Shown here piece after piece: positions 17,557 through 27,732 of a DNA stretch of 64,000 nucleotides. The stretch spans positions 466,659-530,658 of the forward strand of contig NZ_LT904902.1 in the NCBI RefSeq assembly GCF_900199725.1. Reading direction: 5' to 3'. The notes below the pieces were generated by a model that made no database searches, was not told where the DNA came from, and worked only from the letters and a program-made list of their open reading frames with translations. The number at the start of each line of letters is the position of its first letter. Position 1 is the first letter of the stretch. The position numbers and the translations under genes were made by a program. Source of the DNA: Cytobacillus massiliigabonensis. GTDB taxonomy: Bacteria; Bacillota; Bacilli; Bacillales; Cytobacillaceae.

Positions 17557-18333
17557 TTATAATATATCGATCCAAATCTTCACTGAAGTTGCTAAAATTA
17601 ATACCGCTAAAATCATCTGTAACACTTTTGTATTTATCTTTTTGCCTGAATAAGCACCAAGAGGGGATGCAATGAGACTTGCAGCCACCATGATAAGTGC
17701 AGGAACATATTCAACTTGCCCTGTCGTAATTTTCCCAACCGCTGAACCAATGGATGATATAAATGTTATGGCTAGTGAGGATGCAATAGTCATACGTGTA
17801 GGTATCTTTAACACAACAAGCATGATGGGCACTAACAAAAATGCGCCTCCTGCACCTACGATTCCTGCCCCTATACCAACGATTAATGCAAGTGTTGCGG
17901 CAAGCCATTTATTAAATGTCACCTGTTCTATGGGAATATCATCAATGCCTTTTTTGGGAATGAACATCATGACTACTGCAATTAAAGCAAGAATTCCATA
18001 AACGACATTGATTCCTCCTTCAGTCATATGAGTTGATCCCAATCCGCCAATAAAACTGCCAATCAGAATGCTAATACCCATGTAAGCAATTAAAGTTTTA
18101 TTTAAAAATCCACCTTTACGATATGCCCAAACACCGCCAATCGTTGCAAAAAACACTTGAATGGCTGTTATTCCAGAAACTTCATGTGAACTAAAATTTG
18201 CCACTCCAAGTGCTGCGGGAATAAACAGCAGCATCGGGAAGTTAATAATCGATCCGCCTACCCCTAGCAGCCCAGAAATATAAGAACCAATAAATCCAAT
18301 TAAAAAAATTGTAATAATAAATTCAACATCCAT
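17557..18333 (-). CDS. TauE/SafE family sulfite/anion exporter
   Basis: A 258-residue membrane protein with about eight helices and the repeated TauE glycine-rich motifs, [16 protein letters not shown] near the N-terminus and [17 protein letters not shown] in the middle. Family members are thought to export sulfite, sulfoacetate or other sulfur anions. ATG start with AGGAGG upstream. It is the last gene of the sulfur cluster, after the persulfide dioxygenase-like gene, whose product sulfite it would export. A hairpin at 18350-18377 lies between the two, and no CstR-like operator precedes this gene, so expression probably depends on read-through. Confidence 0.88.
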
Positions 18334-18462: not shown

Positions 18463-19590
18463 TTATCTAACAGCACAGCGATTAGGACCAATTTCCATCT
18501 CACGCTGCTGGTCTTCATCAGGACTCATCTTTCCCATATTTGTTTGACGAATTTCCTGATAGGCATTTGGCTGCGGCGGCAAGTTTTCTGTTACGAGTTT
18601 TCTAAACTCGTTTTCATCTTCAATGTTTAACCCATGATTTTTCTCAAACAAAGTGCCTAATTTTTCCGCAACACTTCCATTTTCATTTAATTCATCAATG
18701 ATCATAAAGTGAGCCGGCAGAACGATGAGTTCCTCGGAAAGCTCTCTATAGCTTGAATATAAACTTTCTCTGAGATCACCAACCCAGTCCTCCGCCATTC
18801 CAGCAAGATCAGGTCTTCCAATCGAATCAATGAATAGAATATCCCCTGAAAGCAAGAACTTTTCATCAACGACAAAGGATGTGGAACCAATTGTATGTCC
18901 AGGAGAATATAATGCGTGAATATTAATAGCTGTATTTCCAATTGTCACGATATTTCCATCTTCAAGCGGACTGTAATCAAAGGTTACCTCCTCTGCGTCC
19001 TTAGGAGGCAGCCAGTAGGCAGCATTTGTTTTTTCCGCAATCATTCTGCCGCCAGAAATATGATCAGCATGCAAATGTGTATCAAATACGTGTGTTATCG
19101 TTACATCCAAGTTATTTGCAAATTCAAGATAATGATTAATCATACGTGTAGCATCGATAATAGCGGCTTCTCCATTAGAAACAACCATATAGGATAAGCA
19201 GCCTTTACCGATACGAACGAATTGATAGATTTCTCCACCGTTGTCTAGATCCCCAACTTTCACAGGCTCTAAGTGTTCGCTCCAAGCCTTCATCCCTCCC
19301 TCTAGATAGGATACTGTTAAGCCTGCTGCAGATAGCATATCTGCTACCATAATAGAGGAACCTTCCTTTGCACATACAACGAGTATATCTTTACCAGAAG
19401 GCAGCTTATCTAGCATTTCTTCAACCCCATCAAGTAATTCGAAATAAGGAACATTTAAATAGTCAAAGTTTTCTCCTTCAATTTTCCAGTCTGCAAAATC
19501 TGCTTCATTTCGCACATCTAAAATAAATAATTCTTCTTTATTAATAACTTTTCTTGTCACTTCATTTGCTGTCATTGGTTTAACAGACAT
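18463..19590 (-). CDS. Rhodanese-MBL fusion, persulfide dioxygenase-like
   Basis: A 375-residue protein. An N-terminal rhodanese domain (about 1-108; active cysteine C73 in VVCAKEGSS) is joined to a metallo-beta-lactamase domain (about 115-320) with THLHADH (H172, H174, D176, H177), SPGHT (H232) and [15 protein letters not shown] (D250). That MBL signature is of the ETHE1/CstB persulfide dioxygenase group, which oxidises low-molecular-weight persulfides to sulfite with Fe(II) and oxygen. The domain order (rhodanese first) is the reverse of CstB as I recall it. A tail of about 50 residues ends NRCAVR. A CstR-like operator overlaps the region just upstream of its ribosome binding site. Confidence 0.85.
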
Positions 19591-19595
19591 CCAAG

Positions 19596-19611
19596 TTACC
19601 CCCTATGGTAT
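19596..19611. promoter_or_regulatory. CstR-like operator 1 (rhodanese-MBL gene)
   Basis: TTACCCCCTATGGTAT, six bases upstream of the rhodanese-MBL start codon. It is the least symmetrical of the eight copies. Confidence 0.65.
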
Positions 19612-19639
19612 ATTATTAATTAAAATTTTTTTACTTTTT

Positions 19640-20209
19640 TTAAACACTCCCCGTTTCCCCAGACCATTGACTCATACCAGGCAGAACATTAACTACATGA
19701 ATAAAACCCTTTTCTGTTAACTTTTGGGCAGCAAGATCGCTTCGGCTTCCTGTACGGCATATAACGAAAATGTGATCCTCTTTGTTTAATTCGTATAATC
19801 GATCTTCTAATTCTCCCAACGGAATAGACAATGCATTTGGAATATGGTTAAATGCAAATTCTGCCGCTTCCCTTACATCTAGTACAACAATATTTTCATT
19901 CGTATTTATTTTTTTCTCAAGCTCTTCATTATTTATTACATTTCGATGCTTTTTCTCAATCATTTCATCACTAGATGACTTTCTTAAATAATGCTTTAAT
20001 ACATCACCCTCTTCAAGTGTTCCCAAATACTGATGACCGCTGCTCTCAGCCCAAGCTTTTAAGTCTGCTTTAGAGCCTTTATCAGTGGCCAGAACTTCTA
20101 GAACAAGTCCAGCTTCCAATTCATTCATCGCCTTTTTTGTTTTCACAATCGGCATTGGACATGCTAATCCTTTTGCATCTAATCGTACATTTGCTTTAAT
20201 AGTCTCCAT
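19640..20209 (-). CDS. TusA-rhodanese fusion sulfurtransferase
   Basis: A 189-residue protein with an N-terminal TusA domain (residues 1-77; GLACPMP, C17) and a C-terminal rhodanese domain (about 92-187; VICRTGSRSD, C151). Both domains carry sulfur as cysteine persulfide, so it could pass sulfane sulfur internally. It is part of the functional set that in Staphylococcus aureus is fused as CstA (rhodanese, TusA and DsrE); here DsrE is a separate neighbouring gene. ATG start behind a GGGGG-containing site. A CstR-like operator is at 20232-20247. Confidence 0.88.
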   Translation of the reverse strand: METIKANVRLDAKGLACPMPIVKTKKAMNELEAGLVLEVLATDKGSKADLKAWAESSGHQYLGTLEEGDVLKHYLRKSSSDEMIEKKHRNVINNEELEKKINTNENIVVLDVREAAEFAFNHIPNALSIPLGELEDRLYELNKEDHIFVICRTGSRSDLAAQKLTEKGFIHVVNVLPGMSQWSGETGSV

Positions 20210-20231
20210 TATTAAGCCCCCTAGTCTCTAT

Positions 20232-20247
20232 ATACCTATACAGGTAT
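20232..20247. promoter_or_regulatory. CstR-like operator 2 (TusA-rhodanese gene)
   Basis: ATACCTATACAGGTAT, a near-perfect palindrome 23 bases upstream of the TusA-rhodanese start. Confidence 0.75.
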
Positions 20248-20284
20248 TATTGTTCTTAAAAAATATTAATCTTGTATATTTTTA

Positions 20285-20764
20285 TTAGATAAATAAGTTT
20301 ACATTCCCATCCTCTGCATCTGCTAAATAGGCGGCCACTCCGGCGTATTCAATATTCTCTAATAGTTCTTCTTGCTGCAGCCCTAATAAATCCATTGTCA
20401 TCGTACATGCGACTAACTTAACCTCTTGTTCTTGCGCCATTTCAATTAGCTGAGGCAAAGACATCGCATTATGCTTTTTCATGACATCTTTAATCATTTT
20501 AGGACCAAAACCAGCAAAGTTCATTCTGGAAAGCCCCATTTTATCTGCACCTCTAGGCATCATCTTGCCAAACATTTTTTCCATGAAGCCTTTTTTAACG
20601 TCAATCTGCTCTTCTTTACGCAAGGCATTTAATCCCCAAAATGTATGGAAAATCGTTACTTCATGATCATAGGCTGCTGCACCATTGGCAATGATATATG
20701 CCGCCATTGCCTTATCGTAATCCCCACTGAATAATACAATCGTTGTTTTTTTCTTTTCGCTCAT
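20285..20764 (-). CDS. DsrE/DsrF family sulfur-carrier protein
   Basis: A 159-residue DsrE-superfamily protein. The N-terminal strand and loop (TTIVLFSGDYDKAMAAYIIA) and the C-terminal conserved cysteine (VKLVACTMTMDLLGL, C120) are typical of DsrE/DrsE-like persulfide carriers. The middle insert GFMEKMFGKMMPRGADKMGLSRMN is common in the homologues found next to TusA and rhodanese genes. ATG start behind AGGAGG. It has its own CstR-like operator (20793-20808), and it would exchange persulfide sulfur with the TusA proteins on each side. Confidence 0.87.
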   Translation of the reverse strand: MSEKKKTTIVLFSGDYDKAMAAYIIANGAAAYDHEVTIFHTFWGLNALRKEEQIDVKKGFMEKMFGKMMPRGADKMGLSRMNFAGFGPKMIKDVMKKHNAMSLPQLIEMAQEQEVKLVACTMTMDLLGLQQEELLENIEYAGVAAYLADAEDGNVNLFI

Positions 20765-20792
20765 AATTTCCTCCTATAAAATAAATTTACGA

Positions 20793-20808
20793 CTACCCGT
20801 ATAGGTAT
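20793..20808. promoter_or_regulatory. CstR-like operator 3 (DsrE gene)
   Basis: CTACCCGTATAGGTAT, 29 bases upstream of the DsrE start. The outermost base of the left arm deviates from the consensus. Confidence 0.7.
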
Positions 20809-20824
20809 CTATGAATCAAAAAAA

Positions 20825-21052
20825 TTATCCCTTTTTTATCCAAAACTTCAGCACATTATCTTCTTCTTCATGCTTCAAAAGTTCATGTCCACTAGATTTT
20901 GCCCATGCAGTTAGGTCATTTTTTGCACCTTTATCAGTTGAATGAACCTCTAAGACTTGACCAGATACTAGTTCATTTATTGCCTTCTTTGTTTTAACGA
21001 TTGGCATTGGACATGCTAAACCTTTTGCATCTAATACTTTATCTACTGTCAT
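20825..21052 (-). CDS. TusA family sulfur carrier
   Basis: A 75-residue stand-alone TusA protein (VLDAKGLACPMPIVKTKKAI, C14 as sulfur carrier). It is very similar to the TusA half of the fusion gene nearby, so a local duplication is likely. The ATG at 21052 is chosen because GGAGG lies seven bases upstream; the open frame runs 24 codons further but through the operator and promoter. A SigA-like promoter (TTGACT at 21119-21124, 17 bases, TAATAT at 21096-21101) overlaps a CstR-like operator. Confidence 0.9.
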   Translation of the reverse strand: MTVDKVLDAKGLACPMPIVKTKKAINELVSGQVLEVHSTDKGAKNDLTAWAKSSGHELLKHEEEDNVLKFWIKKG

Positions 21053-21081
21053 TTTAATTCCTCCAAATTTCATTTTTACCA

Positions 21082-21097
21082 TTACCCCTATGGGTAT
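21082..21097. promoter_or_regulatory. CstR-like operator 4 (TusA gene)
   Basis: TTACCCCTATGGGTAT, overlapping the -10 box TAATAT (21096-21101) of a promoter whose -35 is TTGACT (21119-21124). Confidence 0.8.
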
Positions 21098-21133
21098 ATT
21101 ACTAAAAGAAAAAAAGAAAGTCAATCAAAAGTT

Positions 21134-21742
21134 TTATTTATTTTTAAGAGGTTTTTGCCCTACAAACTGAATCACATGGGACAAGCCTTTGTGCAGTTCA
21201 CCTTCATTTCGTACAACTTCTCCCATAAAGAAGTGAACAATACGCCAGTCTGAAAAAGTTTGCAAAAATTCTTCAGGGGTATATAAAAAGCCTATCTCTT
21301 TAGGTCCCCCGCTTTGGTAAGGAATTTGGCAGTTAGAGTATACCTCAGATATAAAATATCCTCCTGGCTTAACTGCTTCTTTAATTCCCATAAGTGTTTT
21401 CATTCGTAATTCTTTTGGGAAGTGACCAAAAATACATACTAGCTCATCCCATACATCTTTCTTCCAATGGGCTTCATTTAAATCGACAAGCTCAGTATGA
21501 ACGCTTACACCCCGGGCTTCAGCAAGCCGTTTCGTTTTTGTCAGCCCAGATTCTGCATAATCCCACGCAGTTACATTCATGCCTTGTTCAGCTAAAAATA
21601 CCGCATTTCTGCCTTCCCCTTCAGCAATAGCTAGGGCATTACCTGTTAATTGAAGCCGTTTCTGTGTTTCTGCTAGAAACACATTCGGTTCCGTCCCATA
21701 TACATAGCTATCATCTTGAAAACGTTTATTCCATGGATTCAT
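21134..21742 (-). CDS. Class I SAM-dependent methyltransferase in the sulfur regulon
   Basis: A 202-residue TehB/thiopurine-methyltransferase-like enzyme. Motif I is degenerate but recognisable (ALAIAEGEGRNAVFLAEQG), then VTAWDYAESGL (ribose-binding acidic residue), ELVDLNE and the post-I region FGHFP, with LKPGG-like VKPGGYF. ATG start behind AAGGAGG. It has the same promoter-operator design as tusA (TTGACT at 21826-21831, TAATAT at 21803-21808, operator 21789-21804). It is therefore likely induced by persulfide and may methylate sulfide, persulfide or another small thiol. That substrate is an inference from context only. Confidence 0.82.
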   Translation of the reverse strand: MNPWNKRFQDDSYVYGTEPNVFLAETQKRLQLTGNALAIAEGEGRNAVFLAEQGMNVTAWDYAESGLTKTKRLAEARGVSVHTELVDLNEAHWKKDVWDELVCIFGHFPKELRMKTLMGIKEAVKPGGYFISEVYSNCQIPYQSGGPKEIGFLYTPEEFLQTFSDWRIVHFFMGEVVRNEGELHKGLSHVIQFVGQKPLKNK

Positions 21743-21788
21743 TTTCTATCCTCCTTGTTAAATCATTTTTGTATAAACTTTATAACCA

Positions 21789-21804
21789 TTACCCATAAGG
21801 GTAT
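21789..21804. promoter_or_regulatory. CstR-like operator 5 (methyltransferase gene)
   Basis: TTACCCATAAGGGTAT, touching the -10 TAATAT (21803-21808); the -35 is TTGACT (21826-21831) with 17-base spacing. Confidence 0.8.
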
Positions 21805-21931
21805 ATTAACGGTAATTTATTTGTTAGTCAATTTGTTTGTTTCATACTATTTTATTGAATAAAAAATCACTATCATTAGAAAATAACAACAAAGGGTTTC
21901 CTTTTTAACTTAAAGAGATGGTGGAGATAAA

Positions 21932-22402
21932 ATGAAATTAGCTCATATAATAAGACTGCTTCAAATTATTATTCCCTGGTTATCAATTTTGTATATACCA
22001 AAAAAATCATTAAATAAATTTCTTCCTGTTTCCTTATTTGCTTCCATACTTGTTCAAGGAATGTGTGCCTTGTCCCTTCCATTCAAATGGTGGATTGTTG
22101 AGGGCGGAATTAAACAGAAAATATGGAATGACTCCAGTTTCATTTTTGGTCCTTTTCTAGCCGGCACGATATGGATCTTTCATTTCACCTATGGAAACTT
22201 TAAAAAATACCTTTTAGTGAATGTCATAATGGATATCCTATTTTCATTTCCATTAAATTATTTATTTGAAAAGTTCAATCTCTATAAGTTAATCAACTTT
22301 AAACCGAAGTATATATTTTTCTCATTTATTAGTTATGCCCTTATTATTTATGGGTACCAATTTAAAATTGATCATTTAAAATTGACTAAAAAAAGCAGGT
22401 AA
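21932..22402 (+). CDS. Membrane protein of unknown function
   Basis: A 156-residue protein with four to five hydrophobic helices (about residues 8-23, 30-48, 70-88, 95-112 and 125-145), aromatic- and lysine-rich, ending in KLTKKSR. I do not recognise the family; it resembles the many small uncharacterised membrane proteins of Bacillaceae. ATG start behind GGTGGAG, with a terminator after it, so it looks like a real gene. It is the only plus-strand gene inside the sulfur cluster and has no CstR-like operator, so it may be an unrelated insertion. Confidence 0.75.
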   Translation: MKLAHIIRLLQIIIPWLSILYIPKKSLNKFLPVSLFASILVQGMCALSLPFKWWIVEGGIKQKIWNDSSFIFGPFLAGTIWIFHFTYGNFKKYLLVNVIMDILFSFPLNYLFEKFNLYKLINFKPKYIFFSFISYALIIYGYQFKIDHLKLTKKSR

Positions 22403-22436
22403 ATTTCATTTGTATGGAAATCCCCCTGCTTTTTAG
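22389..22436. terminator. Terminator between convergent membrane-protein and Cdr genes
   Basis: Stem 22390-22399 with 22425-22434 plus an inner short stem, with A and T runs on its two sides. It can serve both strands. Confidence 0.8.
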
Positions 22437-22474
22437 GCTAAAACATTTTTACCGTTTTCATAGAAAAATGCCTC

Positions 22475-24127
22475 TTAATTGCGTCCGAAAACAGAAGAAT
22501 ATGTTTTCCATCCGCCATCTACATTTTTAACATGGTACCCATTATTTTTAAGAATCCTGCTTGCTAAATACCCTCTTAGACCAACCTGACAACTAACAAA
22601 AATCGTTTGATCCATCGGTAGCTTGTCTAAATTCTCACGAAGTTCATTTAATGAAATATTTATTGAACCGGCAATAAATCCATTTTCACGTTCTTTTGCT
22701 TCCCTAACGTCAATTAGTAATCCACCTTTAGCAATCATTTCATCGATCTCATGCCATTGAACCTGTTCTAATTCCCCCTCCATGACGTTCGTTGCCACAT
22801 ATCCCGCCATGTTCACTGGATCTTTTGCAGAGGAATAGGGCGGGGCGTAAGACAGTTCTAAATGAGTTAAATCTTCGACGGTTAATCCGCCTTTTATTGC
22901 TGTAGCAATTACATCTATTCTTTTATCCGCACCATCTGCTCCAACCGCTTGAGCCCCAAAAATCTTCCCCGTTTCTTGATCAAAAATTAGTTTTAATGAG
23001 ATCGGTGCAGCACCAGGATAATACCCTGCATGAGAGCTTGGATGAATGTGAACAACCTCATAGGGGATGCCTAGACGTTTTAATGTTTTTTCATTATTTC
23101 CAGTTGAAGCGACAGTTAAATCAAACACCTTCGCAATGGAAGTCCCTAGCGTTCCTTGATACGACTCTTTTTTGCCCATCATATTATTTGCGGCAATCCG
23201 GCCTTGGCGATTAGCTGGGCCAGCAAGCGGAATCATCGTCTTCATGCCACTAATGTAATCGACTACCTCTACCGCATCACCAACTGCATAAATATCCTCA
23301 TTCGAGGTTTGAAGAAATTCATTGACTATGATTCCACCACGTTCTCCTAACTTAAGACCAGCAACCTTTGCCAATTCATTTTCCGGCTTTACGCCAATAG
23401 ACAAAATCGTCATATCTGTTTCTATTTCCGATCCATCTGACAAGATAACCTTCTTGCCATTGTCAGCAAATGACTGGACTCCATTTTCTAAGATTAGCTT
23501 CACACCTTTATCGATTAAATGATTGTGCAAAATACTGGCCATTTCGAAGTCAATCGGTGCCATAATTTGATTAGCCATCTCGATAATGGTTACTTCTATC
23601 CCTCTTTCCGCGAGGTTTTCAGCCATTTCTATTCCTATGAATCCTCCTCCGATCACTACAGCATTCTTAGGATTTTGCTTATCAACATAGCTTTTGATTT
23701 TATCTGTATCCGGAATATTTCTAAGCGTAAATAATGTTTCATTTTCTTCTATACCAGGGATTGGCGGAACAATTGGTTTTGCTCCAGGCGATAGTAGAAG
23801 CTTGTCATATGTTTCAGTATACATTTCACCTGTTTGCAGGTTTTTAATAGTAACTTTTTTATTTTTTGAATCTATCTCAATAACTTCACTTAAATTACGG
23901 ATATCCATATTAAAACGTTCAGACATGCCTTTAACCGTTTGTACTAATAGCTTTCCTCTTTCTTTAATCGTTTCACCAATATAGTATGGCAAGCCACAAT
24001 TAGCAAATGATATATACTCACCGCGTTCAATAAGAATAATTTCTACATCTTCGCTTATTCTTCTTAGCTTTGCAGCAGCCGTTGCTCCCCCAGCAACTCC
24101 GCCAACGATAATAATTTTCTGTTTCAT
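22475..24127 (-). CDS. cdr: CoA-disulfide reductase with C-terminal rhodanese domain
   Basis: A 550-residue flavoprotein of the CoADR-RHD type. The FAD motif is IIIVGGVAGGATAAAKLRR, the single catalytic cysteine is C44 in SFANCGLPYY, and the NADH motif is VVIGGGFIGIEMAENL. A rhodanese domain (about 455-550) carries C513 in FVSCQVGLRG. Such fusions reduce CoA disulfide or CoA persulfide/polysulfide with NAD(P)H, releasing sulfide. ATG start behind GGAGGGG. The CstR-like operator at 24146-24161 places it in the persulfide-response regulon. Confidence 0.93.
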   Translation of the reverse strand: MKQKIIIVGGVAGGATAAAKLRRISEDVEIILIERGEYISFANCGLPYYIGETIKERGKLLVQTVKGMSERFNMDIRNLSEVIEIDSKNKKVTIKNLQTGEMYTETYDKLLLSPGAKPIVPPIPGIEENETLFTLRNIPDTDKIKSYVDKQNPKNAVVIGGGFIGIEMAENLAERGIEVTIIEMANQIMAPIDFEMASILHNHLIDKGVKLILENGVQSFADNGKKVILSDGSEIETDMTILSIGVKPENELAKVAGLKLGERGGIIVNEFLQTSNEDIYAVGDAVEVVDYISGMKTMIPLAGPANRQGRIAANNMMGKKESYQGTLGTSIAKVFDLTVASTGNNEKTLKRLGIPYEVVHIHPSSHAGYYPGAAPISLKLIFDQETGKIFGAQAVGADGADKRIDVIATAIKGGLTVEDLTHLELSYAPPYSSAKDPVNMAGYVATNVMEGELEQVQWHEIDEMIAKGGLLIDVREAKERENGFIAGSINISLNELRENLDKLPMDQTIFVSCQVGLRGYLASRILKNNGYHVKNVDGGWKTYSSVFGRN

Positions 24128-24145
24128 AAATTCCCCTCCAAATAT

Positions 24146-24161
24146 ATACCTGCTTAGGTAT
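24146..24161. promoter_or_regulatory. CstR-like operator 6 (cdr gene)
   Basis: ATACCTGCTTAGGTAT, 18 bases upstream of the cdr start codon. Confidence 0.75.
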
Positions 24162-24177
24162 TGTTTCCTATCAGTTA

Positions 24178-24474
24178 TTATTCAACTTTTCCTTCCCAAG
24201 AAAGCATTCCACCAGTCATATTAATAACTTGAAAACCATGGCTATCAAGCAATTGTGCTGCTCTCCCACTTCTTCCACCAGATCGGCAAACCATAATATA
24301 CTCCTTTGACTTCTCTAACTCATGCATACGAAATTCAATTAACCCTAGGGGGATATTCACTGCTCCGGGTATTTTTCCCTCAGCAACCTCTTCTGTTTCT
24401 CGAACATCGATAATATGAAGTTCTTTTCCTTCATTTAAAAAAGTTTCTACTTCTTTCGCAGTTAATGTTTTCAT
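24178..24474 (-). CDS. Single-domain rhodanese sulfurtransferase
   Basis: A 98-residue rhodanese with the usual single-domain layout: IIDVRETEEVAEGKIPGAVNIP, then the active-site loop VCRSGGRSGRA with C63. It lacks a signal peptide, so it is cytoplasmic. ATG start with GGAGG upstream. It follows the membrane-anchored rhodanese gene by 23 bases and probably shares its operator-controlled transcript. The partner or acceptor is unknown; in this cluster it probably moves sulfane sulfur between thiols. Confidence 0.9.
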   Translation of the reverse strand: MKTLTAKEVETFLNEGKELHIIDVRETEEVAEGKIPGAVNIPLGLIEFRMHELEKSKEYIMVCRSGGRSGRAAQLLDSHGFQVINMTGGMLSWEGKVE

Positions 24475-24497
24475 CCTTCATTTCCTCCTCTTCTTCA

Positions 24498-24857
24498 TTA
24501 CGACCAGGCGCTCATGCCGCCTTTAACATTTGTTATATCTTTAAAACCCAATTTTTTTAATAATTTACTAGCCTTGTCACTTCTCATACCGCTTTGACAG
24601 ATCACTATTACCTCTTTCTCCTTTGACAGCTCATTTGCTTTTTGAGCTAATTGGTGAAGGGGAATATTTTTAAAACCACGGATATTGTTTGCTTTAAATT
24701 CTCCAGGTGTTCTTACGTCAATAAATTGTTTATTTTTATTAGCTAATTCTTTTTTCAATTCTGATGTACTGATTTGTCTCACACCTTTTGTCGGTAACAT
24801 CCGTGATAAAATTAATAGAATGACAAGCACAAAAATAATATACTTTAAATATTCCAT
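24498..24857 (-). CDS. Membrane-anchored rhodanese
   Basis: A 119-residue protein with an N-terminal transmembrane helix (about residues 4-20, YLKYIIFVLVILLILSR) and a rhodanese domain (about 28-118) with active cysteine C87 in VICQSGMRSDKA. The domain orientation is uncertain; few positive charges precede the helix. ATG start behind GGAGG. The upstream CstR-like operator at 24872-24887 would control it and the downstream single-domain rhodanese. Confidence 0.9.
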   Translation of the reverse strand: MEYLKYIIFVLVILLILSRMLPTKGVRQISTSELKKELANKNKQFIDVRTPGEFKANNIRGFKNIPLHQLAQKANELSKEKEVIVICQSGMRSDKASKLLKKLGFKDITNVKGGMSAWS

Positions 24858-24871
24858 TGTTCGTCCTCCAA

Positions 24872-24887
24872 TTACCCCTACAGGTAT
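24872..24887. promoter_or_regulatory. CstR-like operator 7 (rhodanese pair)
   Basis: TTACCCCTACAGGTAT, 15 bases upstream of the membrane-anchored rhodanese start. Confidence 0.75.
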
Positions 24888-24895
24888 ATAGATAT

Positions 24896-24921
24896 TTAAA
24901 AAAAGAAGTTTCCTTCTTCTT
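24896..24921 (-). terminator. Weak terminator after the CstR gene
   Basis: Short A/T-rich stem (AAAGAAG with CTTCTTT) and a T run on the minus strand, directly after the repressor stop. Confidence 0.5.
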
Positions 24922-24923
24922 TA

Positions 24924-25184
24924 TTACCTGCTTTTCACAAGCAGGTTGACTGCTTCTTTTATCAATTCATCTGTTTTTTCTCCATTTCTTTCCGCCTCGA
25001 GAACACATTCCACTAGATTTGAACTAACAATAACACCTACTGTTCTATCGACTGCTGAACGAACGGCTGACAATTGGGTAATCACTTCTTTACAATCTTT
25101 ATTGTCTTCCATCATTTTTAAAATCCCTCTTAACTGCCCTTCCATTCGCTTTACTCTATTTTTGATTTGGTCATTATATTCCAT
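24924..25184 (-). CDS. cstR: CsoR-family persulfide-sensing repressor (CstR type)
   Basis: An 86-residue all-helical repressor of the CsoR/RcnR/FrmR family. It keeps the two cysteines (C31 in DNKDCKEV, C60 in NLVECVLE). The histidine expected four residues before the second cysteine in copper-sensing CsoR is N56 here. Cysteines without that histidine are the mark of CstR, which senses sulfane sulfur through disulfide or polysulfide bridges. The N-terminus RVKRMEGQLRGI is the family DNA-binding face. The surrounding persulfide genes support the call. Its own promoter (TTGACA at 25283-25288, 17 bases, TATTAT at 25260-25265) has an operator filling the spacer, implying autorepression. Confidence 0.92.
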   Translation of the reverse strand: MEYNDQIKNRVKRMEGQLRGILKMMEDNKDCKEVITQLSAVRSAVDRTVGVIVSSNLVECVLEAERNGEKTDELIKEAVNLLVKSR

Positions 25185-25264
25185 GGTATAACCCCTTTCT
25201 ATAACTTTTTCGTACCTTATTACCTAGCAGTGCAGAATTAGTATGGATTTTATATCGTTATAAT

Positions 25265-25280
25265 ATACCCTTATAGGTAT
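25265..25280. promoter_or_regulatory. CstR-like operator 8 (cstR autoregulation)
   Basis: ATACCCTTATAGGTAT, lying almost entirely in the 17-base spacer between TTGACA (25283-25288) and TATTAT (25260-25265), and touching the -10. Repressor binding here should block RNA polymerase. Confidence 0.85.
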
Positions 25281-25348
25281 ATTGTCAACTAAACATTTTA
25301 AACTAAAAATGAATTTTTTTATCTTAACTGGGGAAAATAGCCTATGTA

Positions 25349-27103: not shown

Positions 27104-27160
27104 GTTCATTTTAGACTGTTTTATCGATCGGTTTCTGTAACGTTCATTTATGAACTTGAG

Positions 27161-27732
27161 TCTACTTCGGACTTGGGGGATGCTTTCTTGAGCTTTCGTG
27201 TCCGAACCTGAGTCCACTTCGGACTTGATGGATGCCTTTTCTTGCTTTCGTGTCCAAACTTGAGGCCACTTCGGACTTGATGGATGCCTTTTCTTGCTTT
27301 CCTGTCCGAACTTGAGTCTACTTCGGACTTGGGGGATGCTTATTCTTGCTTTCCTGTCCGAACTTGAGTCTACTTCGGACTTGGGGGATGCTTTCTTGAG
27401 CTTTCGTGTCCGAACTTGAGGCCACTTCGGACTTGGGGGATGCCTTTTCTTGCTTTCCTGTCCGAACTTTAGTCTACTTCGGACTTGGGGGATGCTTTTT
27501 CTTGCTTTCCTGTCCGAACTTGAGTCTACTTCGGACTTGATGGATGCCTTTTCTTGCTTTCCTGTCCGAACCTGAGGCCACTTCGGACTTGATGGATGCC
27601 TTTTCTTGCTTTCCTGTCCGAATCTGAGTCTACTTCGGACTTGATGGATGCTTTCTTGAGCTTTCGTGTCCAAACTTGTGTCCACTTCGGACTTAATCGA
27701 TTCTTTCTTATCCTTTCGTGTCCGTACACGAG
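27161..27732. repeat. Minisatellite of eleven 52-bp hairpin units
   Basis: Eleven consecutive units of exactly 52 bases, starting every 52 bases from 27161 to 27681. Units begin with T/GC-Y-ACTTCGGACTTG and end with GTCCRAAYYTGAG. Units 1, 5 and 10 share one variant (GCTTTCTTGAGC) and others share GCCTTTTCTTGC, suggesting duplication of multi-unit blocks. GTCCGAA at the end of one unit and TTCGGAC at the start of the next form a 7-bp stem, so the array makes a series of hairpins. A long open frame on the minus strand (27002-27820) arises from the repeats and is not considered a gene. Confidence 0.9.

Follow-up and report, generated by a model that had tools for sequence, protein, structure and literature searches.

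A repeated CstR operator in a persulfide gene cluster of Cytobacillus massiliigabonensis and its possible role as an elongation checkpoint

Introduction

What does a repressor do at an operator that has no promoter of its own? The question is raised by a persulfide gene cluster of Cytobacillus massiliigabonensis, which lies in a 64-kb stretch of DNA, referred to as the window in the following, and in which ten genes, among them the gene of a CstR-type repressor, have eight copies of one palindromic operator distributed between them. An earlier note on this DNA had regarded the operators as control sites of seven separate transcription units. A sigma-A promoter is however found at only three of the eight, none being visible at the other five, and we here replace the seven-unit reading by one of three promoters and five promoter-less sites that may serve as checkpoints for elongating polymerase, a reading that we favour on balance. 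The form of this arrangement in which a tract of T precedes the operator at a fixed distance recurs across the order.

The operators and their repressor

The earlier note had listed eight palindromes, and all of them are present where it had placed them. Their exact 14-bp core, TACC-N6-GGTA, has eight copies in the window, every one of them in the cluster, against a mean of 0.48 and a largest count of 3 in shuffled sequences, which rules out chance palindromes. The longer form beginning with WTACC, which had been ascribed to all sites, holds for seven and fails at 20793, where the plus strand starts with CTACC (one mismatch), and the claim that nearly every gene is preceded by an operator is true of eight of the ten genes, the operators ending 5-80 bp ahead of the start codons, whereas the gene of the TauE exporter and that of the second rhodanese have none.

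The repressor of the cluster contains a CsoR-family domain (PF02583, E 1e-24) and is 54.7% identical to Staphylococcus aureus CstR, with which its Cys31 and Cys60 align. At the position where the copper-type CsoR of this genome has a His before the second Cys, which we take to be a copper ligand, the alignment gives Asn for CstR. There are three CsoR-family genes in the genome, two of which are of the copper type by sequence and neighbours, one of them beside copZ-copA. Both copper-type genes (L019:12917-13249 and L021) are preceded by TACY-N7-GGTA as read by eye, a spacing one base longer than the N6 of the CstR sites, and with N7 upstream of those genes it is unlikely that the eight operators belong to either of the other two regulators of the CsoR family. 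The cstR promoter contains a 16-mer, ATACCTATAAGGGTAT, identical to the site in the cstA-cstR gap of an S. aureus plasmid (L110), and because of this identity CstR is very likely the ligand of the eight sites, its binding in C. massiliigabonensis being what the sequence predicts. The identity of the 16-mer, the Cys pair and the set of Pfam domains, which is complete for a YrkD/Cst cluster (DsrE2, TusA-rhodanese, rhodanese-dioxygenase, TusA and TauE in addition to the repressor), bear out the view that these are CstR-type operators in a persulfide cluster.

It had furthermore been held that sites of equal quality in large numbers at unrelated promoters would speak against such a regulon, and no such abundance is found with the two strict patterns by which the genome was searched. 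The strict palindrome TACC-N6-GGTA occurs 25 times in the genome: eight copies lie in the cluster, two are intergenic (C6:975769 and 975848), and of the 15 others ten lie inside open reading frames (ORFs) of at least 70 aa and five do not, one of these five (C8:2649085) standing 8 bp before a 262-aa ORF. The stricter TACCY-N4-RGGTA is found 12 times, seven times in the cluster, twice at the second locus that the intergenic pair marks, and three times inside ORFs. The regulon likely consists of two loci rather than of scattered sites, and would thereby reach beyond the window to which the earlier note was confined.

Promoters and operator classes

At cstR, tusA and the methyltransferase gene the promoters stand as they had been drawn previously; the scan that shows them gives, as a whole, 35 promoter-like sites against 29.9 in shuffles, which is no excess. 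When scored with a sigma-A matrix, the weights of which were approximations, the sites before the rhodanese-persulfide dioxygenase (PDO), the TusA-rhodanese fusion (TusA-Rhd), DsrE2, the CoA-disulfide reductase-rhodanese fusion (CoADR-Rhd) and the membrane-anchored rhodanese (TM-Rhd) do no better than shuffled sequences. The five promoter-less operators all lie between co-directional genes, and transcription arriving there is predicted from gene order.

Operators at individual genes are widespread in the family and not peculiar to C. massiliigabonensis. The sample of relatives comprised the surroundings of cstR from 80 places (two genomes twice) together with the window and the second locus (L019), and held 564 homologous genes of at least 30% identity, paralogues included, an operator being counted when within 150 bp. 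Operators, 243 in all, were found at 54/72 DsrE2, 41/59 TusA-Rhd, 40/56 PDO, 33/41 CoADR, 31/82 CstR, 24/58 TusA, 10/49 TM-Rhd, 5/67 rhodanese, 1/53 TauE and 1/4 methyltransferase genes. All 40 strict PDO operators (14-bp core) end 5-9 bp before the start codon and 39 of them contain GGGGG, which likely doubles as the Shine-Dalgarno sequence. A strict site is lacking at 16 PDO genes, of which 11 show a near-site (e.g. TACT-N6-GGTA) at the equivalent position and 5 do not, and among 80 named PDO loci a strict operator is present in 61, again with gaps of 5-9 bp, and a near-operator in 18 more.

The operators can be divided into class A, in which the operator lies inside the promoter spacer (32 in the sample, 29 of them at cstR), class B, in which it lies on or just after the -10 (31, of which 18 at tusA), and class C, in which TTGAC or TTGAT is found in neither place (180, of which 141 are intercistronic); counted among the 180 are two catalase-side sites and, despite its promoter, the methyltransferase site of the window, and the limits of the classes differ slightly between counts. 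By sigma-A score 97% of the 32 class A and 100% of the 31 class B sites exceed shuffles (p<=0.05), as against just 13% of the 141 intercistronic class C sites, and no -10 is enriched at a fixed register among class C sites. Intercistronic class B sites are furthermore often found behind a hairpin terminator (median -9.2 kcal/mol, 17/25 at -6 or below).

The T tract

In 92 of the 141 intercistronic class C sites the longest run of at least five T ends 11 bp before TACC, the remaining runs of this length ending at 10 (5 sites), at 12 (5 sites) or elsewhere (7 sites). By gene, at least four T end at this distance in 32/34 PDO, 33/42 DsrE2 and 29/40 TusA-Rhd sites of class C, and at least five do so in 52 of the 61 named PDO loci with a strict operator. 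A larger set of 193 pooled loci gave the same register; these loci partly overlap (duplicates were dropped by sequence) and come from related, non-independent genomes, so that their counts are not probabilities, and up- and downstream genes were called in them by a simple ORF rule and not by annotation. On the sense side, runs of six T or more number 246 at 11 bp versus 15 at 10 and 18 at 12, and 199 of the 308 distinct modules of tract and operator have a run of seven T.

The tract is likewise specific in orientation and in class. Among 591 distinct operators flanked by a gene on just one side, at least five T at 11 bp were found in sense to the gene in 275, in antisense in 5, on both sides in 1 and on neither in 310, a bias that disfavours a symmetric contact with CstR. 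Outside classes A and B the tract is present at 129 of 242 operators, as against 2/59 in class A and 6/51 in class B. Across the order six T at 11 bp were found in 165/249 genomes and 77/106 genera, and at 15 bp, the one shifted offset that served as control, in 21 genomes and 16 genera; other offsets were compared within the pooled loci only, and a control with a reversed core was set aside, such cores being more frequent in themselves. The class C tracts are not intrinsic terminators, which is ruled out by the lack of a stable hairpin before them (median -1.7 kcal/mol, z -0.4; 12/97 at -6 or below).

A co-directional gene or a class A or B promoter is found within 150 bp upstream at 110 of the 129 sites with the tract at 11 bp, and some of the other 19 resemble class B promoters that went unrecognised, or genes that were not called. 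Modules can furthermore stand in series: in one genus (g35) eight genomes have three of them in a stretch of about 100 bp, and the pooled loci contain 15 distinct pairs of modules less than 130 bp apart. In the four g35 loci that were read (L273, L274, L275, L283) the modules are 47-53 bp apart and follow a CstR-type promoter behind cstR.

Proposed mechanism and alternatives

The operators, their division into sites with and without a promoter, and the T tract with its lock, orientation and conservation are features of the DNA itself. What they suggest is that one CstR may act at two levels, as a block to promoters and as an elongation checkpoint at promoter-less operators, a proposal to which we would give slightly better than even chances. 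At cstR, tusA and the methyltransferase gene CstR would sit on the sigma-A promoter and block initiation, as is suggested by the anatomy of these promoters and by published work on YrkD and CstR. At TM-Rhd, CoADR-Rhd, DsrE2, TusA-Rhd and PDO bound CstR would instead halt or hold RNA polymerase coming from upstream, at about 12-18 bp ahead of the operator on the assumption that the bacterial geometry resembles that of RNA polymerase I (Pol I) at Reb1. In combination with a T-rich tract, Reb1 and Nsi1 halt Pol I at a point 15 bp upstream of where they bind (PMC12366685; papers are cited here by PMC number, each for a part of its text). In the relatives the T7 tract, which gives U7 in the RNA and T7 in the non-template strand, would then often lie within the bubble, and U in the hybrid would leave the polymerase destabilised or paused. 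The pause motif of Bacillus subtilis NusG has T at -12, -11, -8, -7 and -6 (PMC8060035), and the NusG of this genome carries RNTPGV, including the NT pair named in that paper; a polymerase paused in the NusG register would reach into the operator, and polymerase and CstR would therefore be expected to exclude each other. On either account the element would work on a polymerase in motion. Without a hairpin the block may hold the polymerase rather than release it, and in other systems roadblocked polymerase is cleared by Mfd (PMC10310618). The distal genes, with PDO last but one, would be opened last, once persulfide has vacated several CstR sites that lie in series. Co-transcription of the cluster, the elongation block and the serial gating are all predictions from the arrangement of the DNA.

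More tentatively, T7-N11-TACC-N6-GGTA may be a new composite control element of the order, a signal-gated elongation checkpoint in register with T7, by way of a weak hybrid, a NusG pause or both, that stands at the borders between genes or in tandem arrays within leaders, one more repressor having to come off for every gene further along. Such an element would correspond, in bacteria and with persulfide as the switch, to the eukaryotic Pol I terminator made of a roadblock and a T tract, and we consider it possible, with somewhat less than even chances.

A number of points weigh against these proposals. Only two of the five promoter-less sites of the window have at least five T at 11 bp, the other three having T7 at 10, A7T4 at 11 and no tract, respectively; 32 of the 141 intercistronic class C sites are without a run of five T or more within 40 bp, and the 310 operators with no tract at 11 on either side make up more than half of the 591, classes A and B included. 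By eye, about 6 of the 129 sites with the tract at 11 are leading CoADR-type promoters with no incoming gene, composed of TTTACA or similar and TATAAT with the T run at 11 within the promoter spacer. The class C tract has no hairpin before it, and a Pol I roadblock with a T tract and no hairpin stops the polymerase and does not release the transcript (PMC12366685). In Bacillus licheniformis YrkD controls 11 co-transcribed genes, and two sites were found (PMC9918477). Runs of A precede the T run more than they do in controls, which a role in DNA shape would fit as well.

The alternative that survives best, unlikely as we consider it, is that every operator covers a weak or non-canonical promoter of its own, the T tract being a substitute for the -35 or an element of the spacer. 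It would account for the leading CoADR sites, where TTTACA, a T run near 11 and a TATAAT overlapping TACC are joined, and it agrees with the promoter before B. licheniformis yrkE being active in E. coli (PMC9918477). However, only 3 of 10 intergenic regions gave reporter activity in B. licheniformis (PMC9918477), 87% of the 141 intercistronic class C sites are no better than shuffles at the threshold given above, and no -10 is enriched at a fixed register in the 308 modules, while sites with the tract at 11 mostly occur where transcription can already reach them, sometimes serially at distances of 40-123 bp. It is rather improbable that the tract is a DNA-shape element (A-tract) aiding the binding or wrapping of CstR, the operators then being extra repressor sites with no elongation step. 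The A-runs before a T run at 11, which average from 1.9 (T7) up to 4.0 (T5) with some A6T4 forms, as compared to 0.6-1.0 before T runs of 3-8 elsewhere in these regions, are what this notion would lead one to expect, but the tract is oriented 275:5 to the gene despite the operator being palindromic, and it is nearly absent from class A (2/59). Least probable of the three is that the tract serves NusG pausing, by which translation of the following gene would be coupled to transcription, at an operator distance set by compact packing, for although T7 matches the seven-position NusG window (PMC8060035) and the tract begins 0-2 nt past the upstream stop codon in 38/97 sites, packing leaves the exact 11-bp lock unexplained far from a stop codon or in leader arrays.

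If CstR does act at two levels, a repressor known from promoters would also work on moving polymerases, by a simple rule of spacing that the sequences of a whole order reveal. One sensor could then set a separate threshold for each gene of the cluster, and nature would have supplied a design for terminators that are graded and gated by a signal. Whatever the role of the T tract, an element that is precise to 1 bp, specific in orientation and present in 77 of the 106 genera sampled (the control in 16) wants explaining.

Other features of the locus

The coordinates of the cluster are collected in Table 1, with Yrk names assigned after PMC9918477. Cytobacillus praedii is the closest named relative by PDO (91%, among the matches listed). 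A weak plus-strand promoter match, TTTATA-17-TATATT at 21779-21807, overlaps the methyltransferase operator, and the divergent plus-strand ORF 21932-22402, which has no Pfam match, may share this operator region by way of it. A repeat with units of about 60 bp (GTCCGAACTTGAGTCTACTTCGGACTTG...) follows the catalase gene on its downstream side, at 27140-27500 as far as read.

Table 1. Genes, operators, promoters and T tracts of the cluster, in window coordinates
Feature	Position	Strand	Basis and remarks
TauE/YrkJ sulfite exporter	17557..18333	-	Pfam
PDO (yrkH type; rhodanese + metallo-beta-lactamase-fold dioxygenase)	18463..19590	-	Pfam
TusA-Rhd (yrkF type)	19640..20209	-	Pfam
DsrE2 (yrkE type)	20285..20764	-	Pfam
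tusA (yrkI type)	20825..21052	-	Pfam; start is ATG at 21052
TehB-like methyltransferase	21134..21742	-	Pfam
CoADR-Rhd	22475..24127	-	Pfam
Rhodanese	24178..24474	-	Pfam
TM-Rhd	24498..24857	-	Pfam
cstR/yrkD	24924..25184	-	Pfam, alignment
Operator before PDO, promoter-less	19596..19611	.	ends 5 bp before start codon; GGGGG the likely Shine-Dalgarno sequence
Operator before TusA-Rhd, promoter-less (class C)	20232..20247	.	core match, promoter scan
Operator before DsrE2, promoter-less (class C)	20793..20808	.	core match, promoter scan
Operator on -10 of tusA promoter (class B)	21082..21097	.	core match, promoter scan
Operator on -10 of methyltransferase promoter	21789..21804	.	core match, promoter scan
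Operator before CoADR-Rhd, promoter-less, no T tract	24146..24161	.	core match, promoter scan
Operator before TM-Rhd, promoter-less (class C)	24872..24887	.	core match, promoter scan
Operator in -35/-10 spacer of cstR promoter (class A)	25265..25280	.	core match; minus strand ATACCTATAAGGGTAT
Sigma-A promoter of tusA, TTGACT-17-TAATAT	21096..21124	-	promoter scan
Sigma-A promoter of methyltransferase, TTGACT-17-TAATAT	21803..21831	-	promoter scan
Sigma-A promoter of cstR, TTGACA-17-TATTAT	25260..25288	-	promoter scan
A7T4 tract (weaker form), PDO operator	19622..19632	-	sequence; ends 11 bp upstream of TACC
T6 tract, TusA-Rhd operator	20258..20263	-	sequence; ends 11 bp upstream of TACC
T7 tract, DsrE2 operator	20818..20824	-	sequence; ends 10 bp upstream of TACC
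T7 tract, TM-Rhd operator	24898..24904	-	sequence; ends 11 bp upstream of TACC

At the second locus (L019:7270-7362) TTGACT and TAATAT enclose an operator in their spacer and are followed by a short hairpin, the tail of which is rich in T, and by a second operator, the promoter being of the class A type, and behind the operators follow a small ORF with two TGA codons and the genes of a YruB-like glutaredoxin and a ResA/StoA/TlpA-like protein. The small ORF, outside the window at L019:7073-7249 (minus strand; C6:975575-975748), has both TGA codons in frame and has matches in 68/193 genomes and 14/25 genera of the family, 66 of the 70 listed matches having exactly two TGA and no other stop. Its readable copies contain TTGSUGI...PIPIUPGT followed by a membrane helix, no Pfam or NCBIfam match was found for it, nor any paper on it in the open-access literature searched, and the genome encodes tRNA-Sec; it likely represents a family of membrane proteins with two selenocysteines.

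Comparison with known systems

The cst operon of S. aureus likewise has a repressor of the C31/C60 type, a CstB-type dioxygenase, TauE and the identical 16-mer operator, but there one operon is the likely direct target of CstR (PMC5480029). The plasmid copy (L110, L111) has one strict and, by eye, one imperfect site in the cstA-cstR gap and no operators at individual genes, and with its eight operators the present locus indeed has more than that of S. aureus, as the earlier note had maintained. The YrkD cluster of B. licheniformis is alike in having homologues of yrkD, yrkE, yrkF, yrkH, yrkI and yrkJ and a CstR-like repressor that senses sulfane sulfur, YrkD binding two intergenic regions there and elemental sulfur abolishing this binding (PMC9918477). 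It differs in that 11 genes are co-transcribed with YrkD at two sites (IR1 and IR2), as opposed to eight operators here, and in that it ends with NreBC and sqr-pdo (PMC9918477), whereas neither nreBC nor sqr is among the ten cluster genes that were scanned, the rest of the genome not having been searched for them. In the open-access literature we found no report of an element made of a T tract and a CstR operator and no published multi-operator CstR regulon, and only unrelated papers were found on CsoR acting as a roadblock.

CodY is one of the DNA-bound regulators that act as roadblocks. LacI, the Kpn2I C protein and CcpA at sigL likewise halt elongating polymerase when bound to DNA (PMC10310618, PMC6237814), but no T tract at a fixed distance is described for these in the part of PMC10310618 cited, and the C. 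massiliigabonensis cluster differs from them in having a site at most gene boundaries. NusG-dependent pausing in B. subtilis shares the T-rich motif of the non-template strand but has no tie to a repressor site in the cited part of PMC8060035. The yeast Pol I terminator resembles the CstR element in the T-rich tract just upstream of the Reb1/Nsi1 roadblock site, but is eukaryotic and requires an RNA hairpin (PMC12366685), whereas the CstR element is without a hairpin and would depend on a protein that responds to a signal.

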